From Theobroma cacao (Eukaryota > Streptophyta > Magnoliopsida > Malvales > Malvaceae), in assembly GCF_000208745.1 (NCBI RefSeq), contig NC_030852.1, positions 30,830,969 to 30,894,968 on the forward strand: a stretch of DNA of 64,000 nucleotides, written 5' to 3'. Both the position numbers and the translations under genes were made by a program. The notes under the pieces are model-generated. The model searched no databases, was not told the DNA's origin, and saw only the letters and a program-made list of their open reading frames with translations. Each line of letters begins with the position of its first letter. The stretch's first letter is position 1. This document shows positions 13,335 through 41,132 of this stretch, in pieces.

Positions 13335-15915
13335 ATGGGTGTGGTTTCAGTTTTTTTGGAGATTTTGAGGAAACCCACAATTGGGGATGTGTTGAGCGAG
13401 TTAATGATGTTTATAGCTCCTTTATGGGTTGCTGTAATAGTTGGGGTTTTGGTTGGATGGGCTTGGAAGCCAAAGTGGGCAAGTTTAGGCAGAGAAATGT
13501 TGATGGATTGTTCTGGTTCCAAGGATTCAACTCCTGCTGCTTCAGAGTCTTCTTCTCCTGGTTTTGGTTCCATTTCAAGCTTGAATTTGATCAAGTTTCA
13601 GTTACCTAGTTGCATCCCTTGGATTACAGATGAAGGGGCTCAAAAGGATTCTTTTTCTTTGCCACCTACCATTGATTCCAATTGCAGGTTTGCAACTTTA
13701 TCAATTGCTTTCTATTTGCCTTTTTTTTTAAACAAAAAATAGCATTATCGATTGGATAGCAATTGGGATTGTAGGGAATGATGTTATGAGCTGAAAATTT
13801 GCCTACTCTTAATAGCTTTTAAAAGTTAGTTTGGGGACTATGTTATTTGCAGTTGTAAATGTTATATGAGATGGAAGTGGAATGGGAATTGGGATTGTAT
13901 TTGATTTTCCTAACAGCTAATATTTGTGTAATTGGGCAGTTCATCACAGATTGGGAAGGAAAAAACGGGTTTTGTGACAGATGAGGATTTAGAGCATTTG
14001 TGTAAATTAGTTGAAGAAAAAGATGGAGGTCCTGCTTGGATTCAGATGATGGATCGCTCTACACCAACTATGGGCTACCAGGCTTGGCGAAGAGATCCTC
14101 AGGTATATTTCTCCTCTTGAATATTTAATATAATATATTAGGACTAGTAAACTAAAAACAAATTTGCAAATGACTATGCTTGTTGGTTCTGTTCGCTATG
14201 TAAATTTGTTTATTTGCATCTTTTTTGTAGTAAATTTGATTGATTGAATTATGCTTTTATTGTTCATAAGACTGGCCCTCCACAATATCGTAGCCGGACT
14301 GTTTTTGATGATGCCACTCCTGAGATGGTGAGGGATTTCTTTTGGGATGATGAATTTCGAGCAAAGTGGGATGACATGCTTGTTAGTTCTGCAACTATGG
14401 AGGATTGCCCCACCACAGGGACCATGGTGGTCCACTGGGTTCGCAAGGTTTGCAAAACATTTTTTACTATTTTCTTTTGGTGGTTTTCATTTTTGTGTTA
14501 CATTATTTTCTAAAGTGTACTTTGTTTTGCAGTTTCCCTTCTTCTGTAGCGACAGAGAATACGTGATAGGTCGTCGGATTTGGGAGTCTGGGCGGTTCTA
14601 TTACTGTGTTACTAAGGTCATCATCCTGTTCCATTCTCTGGTTTTCAGCTCTGATTAAAAGTCCAAAAGTTAACAAGCCATCTCTATTATGGCTTTCTGG
14701 GCTAGGAGATAAGCCTCCTATATTATTCTGTTTTCTTTCTGCATTTATAGTGAGAAATAACATGGTTGCAACTGATATTTTAATCATATAATTAGTTTGG
14801 ATATCTCTATACCTTTTAGGTTTATAAGAATTTTATGTTGCACAACAGAAACGGAAAATAGTTCTAACCTCACTAGGGAAAGAAATTATGCGAGATGATT
14901 GCCTAATCTTTGAGTTGTATTAATCTGTTAATTGCTTGGCTGAATCCATATTCTTTTATGAATTTTATGGTACAACTCAACTGAGTCTTATTGCCTAACA
15001 ATAGGCTGCTGACTATAACAGTTTATGCCATGGCAGCATCATGTTGGCCAACTCTGTTTTATATAGTTTTTGAAGTGCAGAAGTTAACTTCTTAGCATCT
15101 TTTTACACATTTCAGGGAGTACCATATGCCTCTGTGCCAAGAAAAAACAAACCCAGGCGCGTTGATTTGTACTATTCAAGTTGGTGTATCCGTGCAGGTA
15201 TTAGACTTCACATCATGTGTTTTAGGTTTAAATTATTTTTCATTTTTTCCTGTGCTGTTAGGAACTTTGAAACTTGCTCTTTCCCAGGAAAAGAGAAAAT
15301 TCGTTTTGGTTTTGTACCAAAAGTAAAGAAAGGGAGAATATCTAACTCTTCCTGTAGATAGATTTCCTGGGAATGCCAATTTGTCATGGTCCATTTATGT
15401 TTCATTAATTTCAAACACATACTGCAATGTAAATTCCAGTCAATAATTTGTATGTGTTATATGTCAAAACAGTTGAATCGAGGAAAGGCGATGGCCAGCT
15501 GACTGCATGTGAGGTGTTACTTTTTCATCATGAAGATATGGGTATACCATGGGAAATTGCAAAGCTTGGAGTCAGGCAAGGTATGTGGGGAGCTGTGAAG
15601 AAGATTGACCCTGGCTTGCGTGCATATCAGAAGGAGAGAGCATCTGGAGCGCCCCTATCACATTGTGCTTTCATGGCTCAGATAAACGCCAAAGTAAGTG
15701 CAGACTACCTGAGATCCTTAGAAAGCAACAGTAGCGATTCATCAGAGCTTGAAACACATAATAAATCTGAGAAACCATTGGGGAGGAACATTCCCAAACT
15801 TCTAGTTATTGGTGGGGCTATTGCCCTTGCTTGTAGTCTTGATCGAGGGCTCTTGACCAAAGCTGTTATATTTGGAGTAGCCCGAAGATTTGCAAAAATT
15901 GGAAGGAGGTTGTAA
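13335..15915 (+). CDS. START lipid-binding domain membrane protein
   Basis: Plant START (StAR-related lipid transfer) protein of the phosphatidylcholine-transfer-protein-like group; ligand and role are not settled. Six exons: 13335-13687, 13940-14102, 14271-14447, 14533-14616, 15116-15197, 15473-15915, giving 433 residues. Residues 24-43 form a hydrophobic segment, then a Ser-rich linker. The START domain spans about 125-350 and contains RDFFWDDEFRAKWDDML, TGTMVVHWVRKFPFFCSDRE and the HHEDMGIPWEIAKLGVRQGM block. A second hydrophobic stretch lies at about 396-411, followed by a basic tail ending RRFAKIGRRL. I chose the ATG at 13335 because relatives start just before the KPTIGDVL-type segment; an in-frame ATG at 13206 would add 43 atypical residues. 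The 3' UTR probably carries a 39-bp repeat and an AATAAA at about 16138. Confidence 0.9.
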
Positions 15916-17490: not shown

Positions 17491-17745
17491 CTAGTAGGAA
17501 ACAAGGGTCTCAAAGCAGTTCAGCCCGTCCAACTCTGGTGCAAACCGGGGAGCCCGGACCTGTTGCTTCTTCTCAACGTTTCCCTCTTGCTTTTTCTTCA
17601 TGTTTTCAGTCACCTTATTGGTTACCCCTCTGCTACCAAGGAAGCTGTTACCATCTTTATTGGTTGTGGAGGCAAAGGAGGGCCTGACCGCCTGTCCCAA
17701 GAACTCGGCACAAAAAGCATCAAAGGAACTGAAGATTGAGTTCAT
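17491..17745 (-). CDS. Small stress-type protein with C-terminal FAPxxDGLxxxETLV motif
   Basis: A single-exon 84-residue protein of unknown biochemical function. The N terminus reads MNSIFSSFDAFCAEFLGQ, the middle is Lys/Gln-rich and probably disordered, and the C terminus carries PRFAPELDGLNCFETLV at about 67-82. It looks like a family of small plant proteins, some described as wound- or elicitor-responsive; from memory, one or two such genes lie beside GBS1 in Arabidopsis (At1g32920/At1g32928). The frame extends upstream to an ATG at 17928, but a TATA-like tract at 17863-17872 would put transcription start near 17838. That makes the ATG at 17745 the first in the mRNA. No transit or signal peptide is obvious. 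The neighbouring gene at 23110 shares the tail motif. Confidence 0.8.
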   Translation of the reverse strand: MNSIFSSFDAFCAEFLGQAVRPSFASTTNKDGNSFLGSRGVTNKVTENMKKKQEGNVEKKQQVRAPRFAPELDGLNCFETLVSY

Positions 17746-17862
17746 GTTGATTGCTTGCTTGGTTGCTTGTTCTTCTTTTAGTTGGATTGCTGACCACCTG
17801 GAAGAGTTTTGTTTTGCGAAGATGCTGTTTTGATTGATGAGAAACCAAGGCTCGAAGGAGGC

Positions 17863-17872
17863 TATATATATA
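17863..17872 (-). promoter_or_regulatory. TATA box of small gene 3
   Basis: A TATATATATA tract lies about 120 bases upstream of the ATG at 17745 when read on the minus strand, in otherwise mixed sequence. It implies a 5' leader of about 90 bases and decides between two in-frame ATGs. Confidence 0.55.
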
Positions 17873-18151
17873 GGGGAATCAGGTCTTTGATATGTAGAAG
17901 GGAAAGGAAAGCTAGCCTTGGCTTCCAAGTTGTTTCTTTCTTTATTTCTTCTCTTTTTGTCGGATTAGGACTTTAGGATTTCGCGTAACATGCGAAAAAG
18001 CCTGGATGCTCCTATCTTCAAATGCGTGTAAGTCGGCTCCTGGTGGGACCTGGAATCTCCTTGGACTTGGAGGGAACTAACCTAACCGAACCAAGTCCCG
18101 TCTGTTTAAAAGATAAAAGCTCTTCTAATCAAATCCGAGCCGTCCATTAAC

Positions 18152-18358
18152 GGTCAAGGCTGCTTTACTTTGGGAAGGCCGGTGCGCGACTTTGTCTATT
18201 TTGACTGGACAATTCGACGCCCTCCAGTCGTATTGCTAATATAATAGTAGTACTATTATTTTAGAAGGCCCCCGCCATTGTGAATGGATGGTCTGGATGG
18301 AGAGGACTGCAGCAGAAGCACTAAATATCTAGGAGTTCCATGGGTTGGGTCGTTGACC
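18152..18358. promoter_or_regulatory. W-box cluster upstream of small gene 3
   Basis: Three W-box cores (TTGACC or TTGACT, either strand) lie at 18152-18157, 18201-18206 and 18353-18358, about 400-610 bases upstream of the ATG at 17745. WRKY factors bind such sites, often in wound- and pathogen-response promoters. Function is inferred. Confidence 0.35.
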
Positions 18359-21300
18359 CGTTCCGTGATTGCTTGCTACTTGGCAGGATCCAGATTGCGT
18401 TAATATTACAAGGAAATGGAAAGGTTAACCGAACCTGGCACTTGGCAACCTTGTTCTACCACCTCCAATTTCAAATAGCTTTCAAACAGTCTCAATTGGC
18501 TCAACCTTATCTTTTCCTCTTATGTAATTTTTTAAGGTAATCTTCATAAATACTAATAGCAACAAATTTATGAATAGTTGGACAATCAAATCGGATACTC
18601 TTTAACATATGTTTTTGACCTGGAAGTGAGGATAAGGAGGTGTTTCAAACTCTTTTGATGGGTTTGGAAACATATGGTACCATTATCCACACATGTAAAC
18701 ATGTTAGAGGTCAGGAGCTGTTATCATCTACAAGCTCAATGAAGTTGTTCACAAGAAATGTATTTATGAACAGAAGACCCAAAGTTTTTCTGGTTACAAG
18801 TTGGCATTGAATTAGATGTTTCAGCTTTGCACAGAATACAGACACAGGGGCCGCTACCAAGCACCAAGACGTGTTTTTTCCACTTTCCACAATTGCCGCA
18901 CCGGTGCGCTCACTATTCCTTAATATTTTCAATAGATATAGGACCCCAGTATTTGGGATGGCCGGGGTGGGCCATCACACTCCATCTTAAATCGCCCCCT
19001 TAAAAAGTGAGCCATACTGCAAACTTTGATGGAAAAATTTTGTCCTGTAAGGGACTTTGGATAAGTGAATGACGTAGCACGAATGGGACTTAACGTTGCG
19101 ATTTATAATATTTCCGATGCTTGAACGCTTTGAACTGTTAGTAGTTATGATTTATTGGATCACTTTCATTTCCGATTTCACACCTCCAAGATAACGCATT
19201 ACTCGATGCTTTGAAGTTACCCCTTTTCTGCTCAACTCTTTTATATATATATATAACTGTTTATTGCTTACTTGGGTCACTTACGCATATGGAACAATAG
19301 CGGTCAACGGGTCAAGTATTTGTTAAATTTGAAAATTTTGAATCCAAACTTATCAAAATTTAATAATTTATATATTTTTAGTTTATTCAAATTCAATGGA
19401 AAATTTAAATAATATAAATTAATTTTAAATCATAATAAAAACAATCAATGAATTTTATTAAGTATGAAATTAATTATAAGTAGTTTATAAATAAAAAACT
19501 ACTATATGAACCTAATATATTTAATATTAAAATTATTATTTATGATCAAGTTCCAATAATATATATTTTTAAACCATTAATCTTGCACTATAATTTTATT
19601 ATATAATACTGTAAACAAAGTTGTCAATTATAAGGTACTTAATAGGGCAACATGTTCCTGTTTTTCTTTAGTAATATAACGGAACTTTCCTGTTAGTTTC
19701 CTGATGATATCTCTTGTTGACAAACCCTTTTATTGGGACCAAGGTCTACTTGCATAGCAGCGTAGCTCTCTTCTTCCTTTGACCTTGTAAGATAAGAAAA
19801 TAATATTAATCAAGTGAACGCGTTGAAGAAGAAAGTTGACCCAGACATGAGACCAAGAAATTTCAAGTCGAAGCTCCTTTTTCCTTTCTCTCCAGAAGGT
19901 TCAAATTTTAATTAAGGTGTAATACAGATATATTAGGACAATATGAAAGTGAAGCCTTAATCCTATTTATGTATTTTCTTTTTTGATGTAATAATCTAAT
20001 TGTACCTATCTATATAGACATAAAATAACAATAAAAGCAACTAACCAACAAATATAATAACTAATATCATGTAGCGTTTGCTATCATTTTTAATATCATC
20101 GTGGTGACCTAAAAACCCATATTTGGTATAACATTATAAATTATTAGTGATCTTAAATCTTTGTGTTGGGTAATACATAGGAAAAAAAATCACCTAATAG
20201 AAAATATGCAAAATAATTTTTTTTATGAATAATAACATTATTCATCAAGTAAACAGAAATTTCAATTTTTAATTAAATAAACAATTTATAAAATAAGAAT
20301 CCGTTGATTTATAAGAGCATATAAGATATGTACCAATTTTGATGAGTATGAGTATAATAATCCTCTAAAACAGTCAATTCTTATAAAGGCCAATGTCATG
20401 TAGGTTTGCTTTATTAATTGAATTAGTTTAAAAATAGTTTTTTATAGTGTGTTGATTGAATGGTCACTTATAATGAAGAATATCTTATAGGTCTACATAT
20501 ATTTGATTCTCCTCCTTCTGACATTTTACATTATGTTTTTGCAAATAAGTTAGGGATAAGCTGGGTTAGTTACATCACATTATTTGCTAATTGATTTTCC
20601 ATTATATAGAAAAAAATTTTGAAGAGAAAAGTTTTTGCACACGTGCCATTACAACAATTGTTTTTGATAATCTAAAATCACTGTCACATAAATTTTTAAA
20701 TTATTATCAAACACTATAATCTAATCATGCTAAATAAATCATTTTAAAATTTAAAGAGATCACCTTATGATAAACATAATCTTACCGGCTTACTTAATTT
20801 CAAAAAAAGAAAATCTAAAACGTTTTCAAATTTTCATTAAAATTTTGATAAACAAAGGTTTCATTTTTGGTTATTATCCTTATTTCAGTGATAATTTACA
20901 GTATTTTTCAATTGGAGATGGGTAAGGAATAACCTTTTTTTTTTTTTGAAATTATCATCCTGCTTTCATGAACATGAAGGGAAATAATTTTTCTCCTCCA
21001 TCAACAAGAAGAGCAAAATAGGAGCAAAAACAGAGGGATATTGGTTGATATACACCTACATAACACCCAAGCCTACCCCCCAATGCCCAATCACTCATCC
21101 TCTTCAAAACCATAAACCACTCCCCTGCCTTCATAAAAAAGGAAATGTGATAAAGCATACAATCCCTGCACTTTACATCTACGCAGGTGGCATTAATTAC
21201 ACAAAAACTCGTACAAAGACATGTTTGTTTTTAAGATCCTAAAAAGAAAAGCATTTTTAAGATGGAGGGAATGATCTGTCCTTGTAAAAACCAAAGGTTT

Positions 21301-21689
21301 GAAGTTTCTTTCAGAGATAGAGTGCACAACTTTTGTTTATGTTAGCTGGTGCATGACTTCCTGATTATAAAAAGAGTGTGGCATCAACATCCAATCAACA
21401 AAAGGAGAAATGCAAGACAAGGCCCATATTCGTTGGTTTCACACCGTCAAATTCTCCCACAATCTTAATTTCTTTAAAGCGCAGCCATGTTCTTTTTTTT
21501 GACCGCATCACTACCACGACCGGTGCCAATAAAAAAAATCAGCACAACTTTGAGATATTTTTATCTTTGTCATGCAATCTCATCTTAATCCAATTAAAAC
21601 CCATACGTTACGTTTTTTTAGATTTTTTTTTTGGGGGTTGATTGCTTACCAAAAGGATTAGAGTACTGTATTTCGGAACTGTGGTGTTA

Positions 21690-21690
<1 letters not shown>

Positions 21691-21723
<33 letters not shown>

Positions 21724-21735
21724 TTATATATATAT
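21691..21735. repeat. Compound (CT)n(TA)n microsatellite
   Basis: About ten CT units are followed directly by TA units interrupted once by TTTA. It lies in non-coding DNA. Confidence 0.95.
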
Positions 21736-22766
21736 GCGCTCAAGGTCTCGTTAGAACAATCCCAAATGAAATAATCAGTATCCCAATGTTTTAATTGACC
21801 ACAAAGTGTTGCATATTCATTATTTAATTAATTAACTTTGCAAAATTTACATGTTTTTTAAAGAATTGTAAAATAAAGATTCTAATTCAAATATTTAGCC
21901 TAATAAATATGGATCTCAAGCTTACAAAACCAAAAAGGTGCCTTTTTTTAAGGTACCTATACCCTAAGTATGCTGGGGCAACCACCATTGTCTTGAAACT
22001 TGCGTGACAATGCCGAAGCATCTGTCATGTTGATGATAAAATAATGTAAACTATTGACTATTCTTCATTATCAAAAGCGTTTGTTGTCCGTTGTTTCATA
22101 ATGAAAAGAAACTAAAACAAAGTACGAAATAAGAAATTTACACCTTACATAAGGCAACCAAATTAGTCCAACCAAATAATTATATTACGCTTGAAGCCTC
22201 AGCGGAGTTAATTAAGAAAGTGCCATCCCAATTCCTACAAGACATATGGCCAAAGAATATATGTAAATGTCAATGCGTGTAACATGTCATCGGTCCATAT
22301 TCCAGGCAGAATCAACGCACGCCGAGAAGACCGTGACAATGGGAATTGGCGAGCTACTTGCTTTTGCAAATCATAAATGATTGATTGAAAATTTCCCGCC
22401 TGATCGTAGTGACTGGTGACTTGGTCATAGCTGGCCTTTCAAAACTTTTAAAAAGAGCGTTATTCTCCTAAGATTCAAACTTCAAAGCCCATGGCCTGAC
22501 GGAGTCGAACGCCATCGAGCTTAAGCAAACACGACCCCACCCATTTTTCAAAAACACGAGCCTGTCCGCCCCCTCTCTACGCTCTAGATTACAGCGCCTT
22601 TCTCCACAATCAACGCATCTTTCCATTTACTAGATAATTAAATTGATCAAGTAAAGGAGATTCTGAAAAAAACCGCTGTTCTGTAGGGGGCCACGGTCCC
22701 TTATTATTCTACCGTTCGGGTCCACCGCCGTCACTTTCGTCATGCCAAGCTGGCAAGCCTTAGGAC

Positions 22767-22932
22767 ACGCGGCCGTTTTCTATTGGTTAAGGAGAGTTGA
22801 GGATATCGTGGACTCGACGTGGTAGAGAAGCTACACACACATTTTTTTAATTTGAAAACCGGACCCAAGAGTTAAATTAAATTCCGTTAATTGAGGAAAC
22901 GGGAAGCTGTGGCAAATTCAGAAAATATAAAA
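22767..22932 (+). promoter_or_regulatory. Core promoter of small gene 4 (CGCG box, CCAAT, TATA)
   Basis: A TATAAAA box at 22926-22932 lies about 180 bases before the ATG. Upstream is a reversed CCAAT (ATTGG at about 22782) and an ACGCGG element at 22767-22772 that fits the CAMTA-binding CGCG-box consensus. Spacing suits a transcription start near 22960. Factor binding is inferred. Confidence 0.4.
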
Positions 22933-23109
22933 GCTCCAACCAGGAGGGAAGGATAAAATAAGTTTGCCGAAAGGAAGAGAAAAGGAAAAGGAAAGCTGGT
23001 GGTCGGGATCCGGCGAAGTTCGTCGGGTTTCGCCCATTTGTCGTTCGAGCTTCGAAAGAAAACAGTCTCAATCTGAGTTTCAATCGCAGAAATAGATAGG
23101 ATTCGGAAA

Positions 23110-23800
23110 ATGAAGGGATCTGGGCCTCTTGTTGCGACTGTGCTCGCTGCTTCCACGGTGGCTCTCACATCTTCTTCCTCCTCTGGACTCGATGTTTCTT
23201 TTTCTCCTACCTCCTCCGACCAGGTACTTTTCTTTTTGAAAATTTTTTCATTCAAAATTTTAAGGCTTATATGATACCTCTCATTTCAAATTTTAAGTGA
23301 ATGTTTCGTTTCGTAATTTTTAACTGATTCCTGTTTCCAATGTCTAGTCACTGCTTTTTCTTTTTAATTTTTCCACTATATTTCAATGCAAAATTTTGAC
23401 TGCTTAAATAATTATTTAAGTGGCTTGCTTTAGGATCTAGATTTGCCTTTTCTTTTCAATTTCCCCATTTTATTCGCTGCTTAAGTTACTAATTCGTTTT
23501 TTACCCTTCCTTTTTATAATTTTTAACTCTTAATTTCTGTCAATACGATTAATTGTGCCTTTAATTCGTTAAGTTTTTTGCTTTTTCCTAAATCATGGAT
23601 TTTGATTTTGAAATCTATGGATTCAAAAGGAAACCTTTCCAATCTCTAGTTCTTGACATTCTACATTGATTGATCAGCGCTATAACTCGACGGTAAAGAA
23701 GGGTACCTCGAGGAACTGTACGGCGTCAGAAAAGGAGAAATTCGCGCCACGATTTGATGGGTTGAGGTTCATAGAGACGTTGGTCACAGCTCACAGATAG
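23110..23800 (+). CDS. Small two-exon protein with FAPxxDGLxxxETLV tail
   Basis: A 78-residue protein of unknown function, from exons 23110-23223 and 23678-23800 joined in phase 0. It begins MKGSGPLVATVLAASTVALT, a hydrophobic segment that could be a signal peptide, organelle-targeting sequence or membrane anchor. A Ser/Thr-rich middle follows, and the C terminus is KFAPRFDGLRFIETLVTAHR at residues 59-78. The tail agrees with the tail of the gene at 17745 at 10 of 16 positions, although the N termini are unrelated and the exon structure differs. It lies 3.4 kb upstream of GBSSI. The intron acceptor has a poor pyrimidine tract, but the join restores the conserved motif and a stop directly after it. 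Confidence 0.75.

Positions 23801-35234: not shown

Positions 35235-41132
<5,898 letters not shown>

Follow-up and report, generated by a model that had tools for sequence, protein, structure and literature searches.

The window analysed here is a 64,000-nucleotide stretch of Theobroma cacao (contig NC_030852.1, positions 30,830,969 to 30,894,968), and the subject of this report is a pair of small genes within it, gene 1 and gene 2, which lie 5.4 kb apart, are transcribed in opposite directions and encode proteins that share a C-terminal tail. In window coordinates, gene 1 is laid out as follows:

17491..17745, minus strand: gene 1 coding sequence, 84 amino acids, intronless, placed by translation and family search in the AT1G32928-like or 'Avr9/Cf-9 rapidly elicited protein' family
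17692..17745, minus strand: conserved head, residues 1-18, MNSIFSSFDAFCAEFLGQ, with a helix predicted at low confidence over residues 5-19 (conservation in 113 sequences; AlphaFold2 block predicted local distance difference test, pLDDT, 60-62)
17548..17691, minus strand: variable Lys/Gln-rich middle, residues 19-66 (conservation alignment)
17500..17547, minus strand: tail, residues 67-82, RFAPELDGLNCFETLV (translation, conservation, tail scan)
17863..17872, minus strand: TATA-box-like TATATATATA, about 120 bp upstream of the gene 1 ATG (sequence, scan)

Gene 2 consists of two exons:

23110..23223, plus strand: exon 1, 114 nucleotides, residues 1-38, with the hydrophobic small-residue head MKGSGPLVATVLAASTVALTSSS encoded by 23110-23178 (sequence, homologues, conservation)
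23224..23677, plus strand: phase 0 intron, GT...AG (sequence; spliced product identical to P0122)
23678..23800, plus strand: exon 2, residues 39-78 and stop codon TAG (23798-23800), containing the whole tail (sequence, homologues)
23738..23797, plus strand: tail, residues 59-78, KFAPRFDGLRFIETLVTAHR, with a helix predicted over residues 66-77 (conservation in 111 sequences, six-frame scan, AlphaFold2 block pLDDT 81-84)

Both structures agree with those proposed in an earlier note on this DNA. The translation of gene 1, which ends in RFAPELDGLNCFETLVSY, matches the one given there and is 98% identical to T. cacao protein P0002. The T. cacao annotation includes a protein, P0122 (uniref name LOC18605947), that is 100% identical to the spliced gene 2 product (78 amino acids). 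The same splice and the same tail are thus present in an independent gene model; the note had named an unspliced 23224-23677 as evidence against its reading.

By every sequence test used, the two tails come out as homologous. The 16-residue stretch of gene 1 and its gene 2 counterpart, KFAPRFDGLRFIETLV, share 10 identities, as first noted. The best ungapped 17-residue match between the two proteins scores 52, against a mean of 19.5 (standard deviation 3.9, maximum 35) in 300 shuffles, and the heads and middles alone score 12. BLASTP aligns the tails only (10/17 identical, E 1e-5), and an hhalign comparison of profiles from 65 gene 1 and 63 gene 2 proteins also returns a tail-only alignment (probability 92%, E 6.7e-7). 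Tails cut out of these profiles align over 19 columns (96.1%, E 3.3e-9, score 32.6), with 30 column-scrambled controls scoring 12.9 or less. The head profiles of the two genes cannot be aligned (hhalign probability 0.1%), which upholds the view that the N termini are unrelated, and the gene 1 head reaches less than 1% against either tail. An internal repeat within gene 1, head against tail, was rejected (probability 0.3%). When the window was scanned in all six frames, the tail matrix of each family places the tail of the other gene second (25.8 and 22.9), with a third match of at most 2.6 and with 20 window shuffles in 2-base blocks peaking at 16.3 and 14.3. This weak third match (score 2.6) lies at 38764, in what we take to be a ubiquitin protease gene. 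A convergent or chance likeness of the tails would suit the different heads, exon structures and orientations of the genes; hhalign, BLASTP, the shuffles, the six-frame scan and the lasting neighbourhood described below all speak against it, and these controls leave it highly improbable.

Searches of Pfam (to E 10) and of NCBIfam returned no match for either protein, and sequence and profile searches of the PDB gave no credible relative, the few matches (E 1.8-3.5) falling on the low-complexity middles. A tail-only search, covering proteins of about 94-297 amino acids, returned 98 matches, of which nine have a tail of the gene 1 type and 89 one of the gene 2 type, as well as what look like fused gene models, one of which includes part of a thiolase. 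No convincing third tail-bearing head was found in this size range, which could miss shorter third families. Members of both families already exist in databases, unnamed or named for their expression; in the open-access literature searched, no paper prints the tail sequence, and neither the shared tail nor the gene pairing is described. Eight of the 88 new tail-search proteins (P0267, P0269, P0271, P0298, P0309, P0313, P0323 and P0324) do not end at the tail and run on as TAHRW..., which would fit a retained intron whose splice donor comes after CACAG; in these species a third exon may hold the stop codon. The cacao window has the gene 2 stop codon directly after the tail.

Conservation was assessed in alignments of 113 of 121 rows including the query for gene 1 (eight with odd ends were dropped) and 111 of 120 rows for gene 2 (nine dropped). 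Both proteins consist of a conserved head, a free linker and a conserved tail, and the tail is the best-conserved part of each. The gene 1 start keeps the pattern MNSxFSSFDALCAEFLGQ, with F5, S6, S7, F8, D9 and E14 at 95-100%; from residue 27 to residue 65 most columns hold less than 2 bits, and A69, D73, G74, F78, E79 and T80 in the tail stand at 100%. The gene 2 head is conserved over residues 1-23, with A9, A13, A14, S15 and A18 at 92-100% (A14 and S15 near-invariant), and its tail has F60, F64, D65, G66, L67, I70, T72, L73, T75, H77 and R78 at 100%. The proposal that strong constraint falls on the tail only therefore fails: residues 1-18 of gene 1 and 1-23 of gene 2 are strongly conserved too, and only the middles are free. 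Before any rows were dropped, a loose pattern found the tail in 120 of 121 gene 1 rows and 115 of 120 gene 2 rows, the remainder being truncated or frame-shifted gene models, plus P0207 with an E-to-Q change. Orthologues keep the tail, the loss of which would have counted against the original reading.

The distance from the tail to the C-terminal end is also fixed, at two residues in 109 of 120 gene 1 tails and four in 114 of 115 gene 2 tails. This placement at the very end of the protein speaks for a signal that sets location or stability, such as a C-terminal degron or an organelle address, which would give the two proteins a common fate and no partner of their own. Against this stand the conserved Phe, Asp-Gly-Leu and Glu-Thr, which suggest a specific surface, and the 19-20 near-invariant residues, which to our knowledge exceed the need of known short C-terminal signals; we consider a pure address or stability signal distinctly unlikely.

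Just before the tail stands a basic residue, R in 99% and K in 96% of sequences after weighting. This constant or near-constant feature keeps alive the main rival explanation, namely that the tail belongs to a signalling-peptide precursor: gene 1 would be a PROPEP-like cytosolic protein cut on damage, gene 2 would be secreted by way of a signal peptide, and both would release FAPxxDGLxxxETLV peptides. The tail itself presumably differs from the Pep motif. According to the accessible part of one source (PMC6547358), PROPEPs have about 100 amino acids, no signal sequence and a conserved C end, are induced by stress and, when damage occurs, are cleaved by metacaspase 4. Gene 1 fits this architecture in its size, its variable middle and its conserved C end, whereas gene 2 differs in its hydrophobic head; that head, and several source names reading 'Secreted protein' or 'precursor', would suit a secreted precursor. 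However, both heads are conserved residue by residue, which exceeds the need of a disposable leader, the tail has a hydrophobic character and lacks an obvious site for modification, and the basic residue can equally belong to the motif. No peptidomic evidence was found in the open-access literature, which was searched by tail letters only. A peptide precursor is, in our estimate, unlikely.

The two families differ in their taxonomic spread. Among the 120 of 156 gene 1 matches listed, some of them unnamed, all that bear a species name are from eudicots, down to Papaver, Macleaya and Aquilegia. The gene 2 tail is almost unchanged from Amborella to grasses, being present in two Amborella proteins, in the magnoliids Cinnamomum, Asimina and Aristolochia, in monocots including rice, maize, barley, Musa, Typha, Wolffia and Vanilla, and in eudicots; no gymnosperm name was found among the 120 of 433 gene 2 matches listed. 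As to direction, we infer that the gene 2 tail is the older and that gene 1 gained it in the eudicot stem. Grass relatives of gene 2 (P0268, P0297, P0299 and others) carry the same tail behind a different head, MKWGLAAAVASAAAVAAASGAELLACDC, which is closer to a signal peptide with cysteines.

Locus tags of the two genes lie no more than five gene steps apart in 22 of the 27 gene 2 rows that share a putative contig with a gene 1 row, where rows were chosen for matching, so 22 counts cases and gives no rate. These 22 loci cover 18 eudicot species, including Macleaya, Malania and Escallonia in addition to rosids. Durio, Melia, Vitis, Liquidambar and Vaccinium have a putative shared contig without neighbouring tags. 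The AT1G and AT5G names of the Arabidopsis relatives imply different chromosomes, so linkage has been lost there. Of the earlier interpretation as a whole, tail homology, the tail as the most conserved part and the lasting neighbourhood hold, and the tail as the sole constrained part does not.

Gene 1 is a member of the AT1G32920/AT1G32928 family, with relatives among the matches listed at E 4.8e-48 to 1.1e-9 and full-length similarity that includes both conserved ends. Matches named 'like AT1G32928', as in Hibiscus trionum, are 70-76% identical, and others are named 'Avr9/Cf-9 rapidly elicited protein'. The family name stems from expression, and the available portions of the source papers describe no function or tail for AT1G32920/AT1G32928. 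In those portions, AT1G32920 appears among stress-response genes alongside WRKY, ERF, JAZ6 and MPK3 (PMC3701873) and is tabulated among the common targets of stress regulators (PMC5961379). It is also given as a hub gene of drought recovery, with CAMTA1 required for its repression in drought (PMC12397292), and AT1G32928 increases more in infected rough lemon than in sweet orange (PMC5705785). Within 1.5 kb upstream of gene 1 there are four W-boxes against 1.3 expected from mononucleotide shuffles, and no CAMTA-type VCGCGB sites against 2.7 expected; CAMTA control of gene 1 in cacao is without support in this interval. Tomato ACRE75 (Solyc11g010250), a possible relative of gene 1, is nuclear and raises Botrytis resistance according to an excerpt (PMC7821246). 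Tandem copies of gene 1 are frequent (Salix brachista, Macleaya), and one poplar model joins two gene 1 copies with both tails present (P0039, P0040, P0043, P0242, P0057 and P0119).

Gene 2 belongs to an AT5G42110-like family, to which it shows full-length similarity with an MK(G/K) head and a FAPRFDGLRFIETLVTAHR tail (433 matches, 120 listed), and the listed matches named 'like AT5G42110' are 63-73% identical to it. AT5G42110 itself appears in comparative Brassicaceae genomics, and no function was seen for it in the portions of that literature available.

We favour the interpretation that gene 1 is an inducible soluble carrier of the tail and that gene 2 carries it constitutively or at a membrane. 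In its full form, which we hold to be about evenly poised, one old docking tail, (K/R)FAPxxDGLxxxETLV, would be borne on two different conserved heads by old, divergently transcribed neighbours. Gene 2 would display the tail at the end of a free linker, behind a hydrophobic N-terminal segment that anchors the protein in a membrane or directs it for secretion; the A9-A13 and A14-A18 spacing in this head would suit a packed membrane helix. The near-invariance of the gene 2 tail in flowering plants would be expected of a docking helix with a conserved partner. Gene 1, from a stress-responsive family, would combine the tail with a helix-like head of its own in a soluble protein. Both tails may bind the same or related partners, and a stress burst of gene 1 product could then compete with gene 2 or bring its own head to the partner, thereby redirecting it. 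In favour of this interpretation stand the homologous tails on heads that do not align, the head-linker-tail conservation, the wide spread of the gene 2 tail and its predicted helix, the outcome of the tail-only search, the neighbouring locus tags and the stress records of AT1G32920/AT1G32928. Small non-secreted plant proteins can work by C-terminal docking, as RTFL/DVL proteins bind BSK kinases through C-terminal residues (PMC10613268, consulted in excerpt). The likeness is one of working principle only: neither protein here has a Pfam match, so they are not RTFL/DVL members.

AlphaFold2 models of both proteins are too poor for a fold search. Gene 2 (mean pLDDT 61.4) has the predicted tail helix at 66-77, and gene 1 (mean pLDDT 56.2) a single helix at 5-19 in its head, so that the shared tail is, so far, predicted to be helix-prone in gene 2 only. 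Several observations weigh against the docking interpretation. The gene 1 tail is without a helix in its poor model; the hydrophobicity of the gene 2 head is borderline (19-residue Kyte-Doolittle value 1.28 in P0122, class means 1.36-1.63); and six of the 16 tail positions differ between the two proteins, as does the tail charge, so that each tail may have a partner of its own. Moreover, unlike the window, the QQP08 annotation of cacao sets the tags of the two genes 1,021 apart, and their longest contigs differ.

The composition of the gene 1 ends bears on a further explanation, a nuclear coregulator role for this small protein: its two acidic-hydrophobic ends would imitate activation-domain motifs, and the likeness to the gene 2 tail would be inherited but functionally unrelated. 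Phe, Asp/Glu and Leu recur in both ends, which we take to resemble activation motifs, and the nuclear location and Botrytis effect of ACRE75 would add support if that protein is a relative. Acidity is not needed for the motif, however, since the gene 2 tail is basic and surpasses the gene 1 tail in conservation, and gene 1 shows no repeat relation between its head and its tail; we judge a coregulator very unlikely.

A further reading, which we regard as doubtful, is a two-precursor peptide or docking system: the tail, near-invariant in flowering plants, would be a ligand, with gene 2 as its membrane or secretory form and gene 1 as a damage-inducible soluble neighbour added in eudicots, and one receptor, kinase or chaperone would serve both. 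That some 20 tail residues hardly change between Amborella and the grasses points to a conserved partner in flowering plants, and the stress-linked neighbour family with the same tail in eudicots is a ready comparison for finding it. Such a partner would give a first handle on a family so far labelled by expression.

Upstream of the 3' side of gene 1 lies an open reading frame of 155 amino acids (15448-15915) with no Pfam match. Other genes in the window, assigned by Pfam, are as follows:

27126: starch synthase catalytic domain
32458: glycosyl hydrolase 17
48681: PHD protein
51826: PAM2 protein
59425: ADH-like

The gene order over 26-60 kb of the window appears, on our assumption, collinear with Arabidopsis AT1G32900 down to AT1G32780. 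There, AT1G32900 (GBSS1) is presumably followed by the gene 1 relatives AT1G32920 and AT1G32928. AT1G32930 is given as GALT31A in the accessible part of a further source (PMC4234293).
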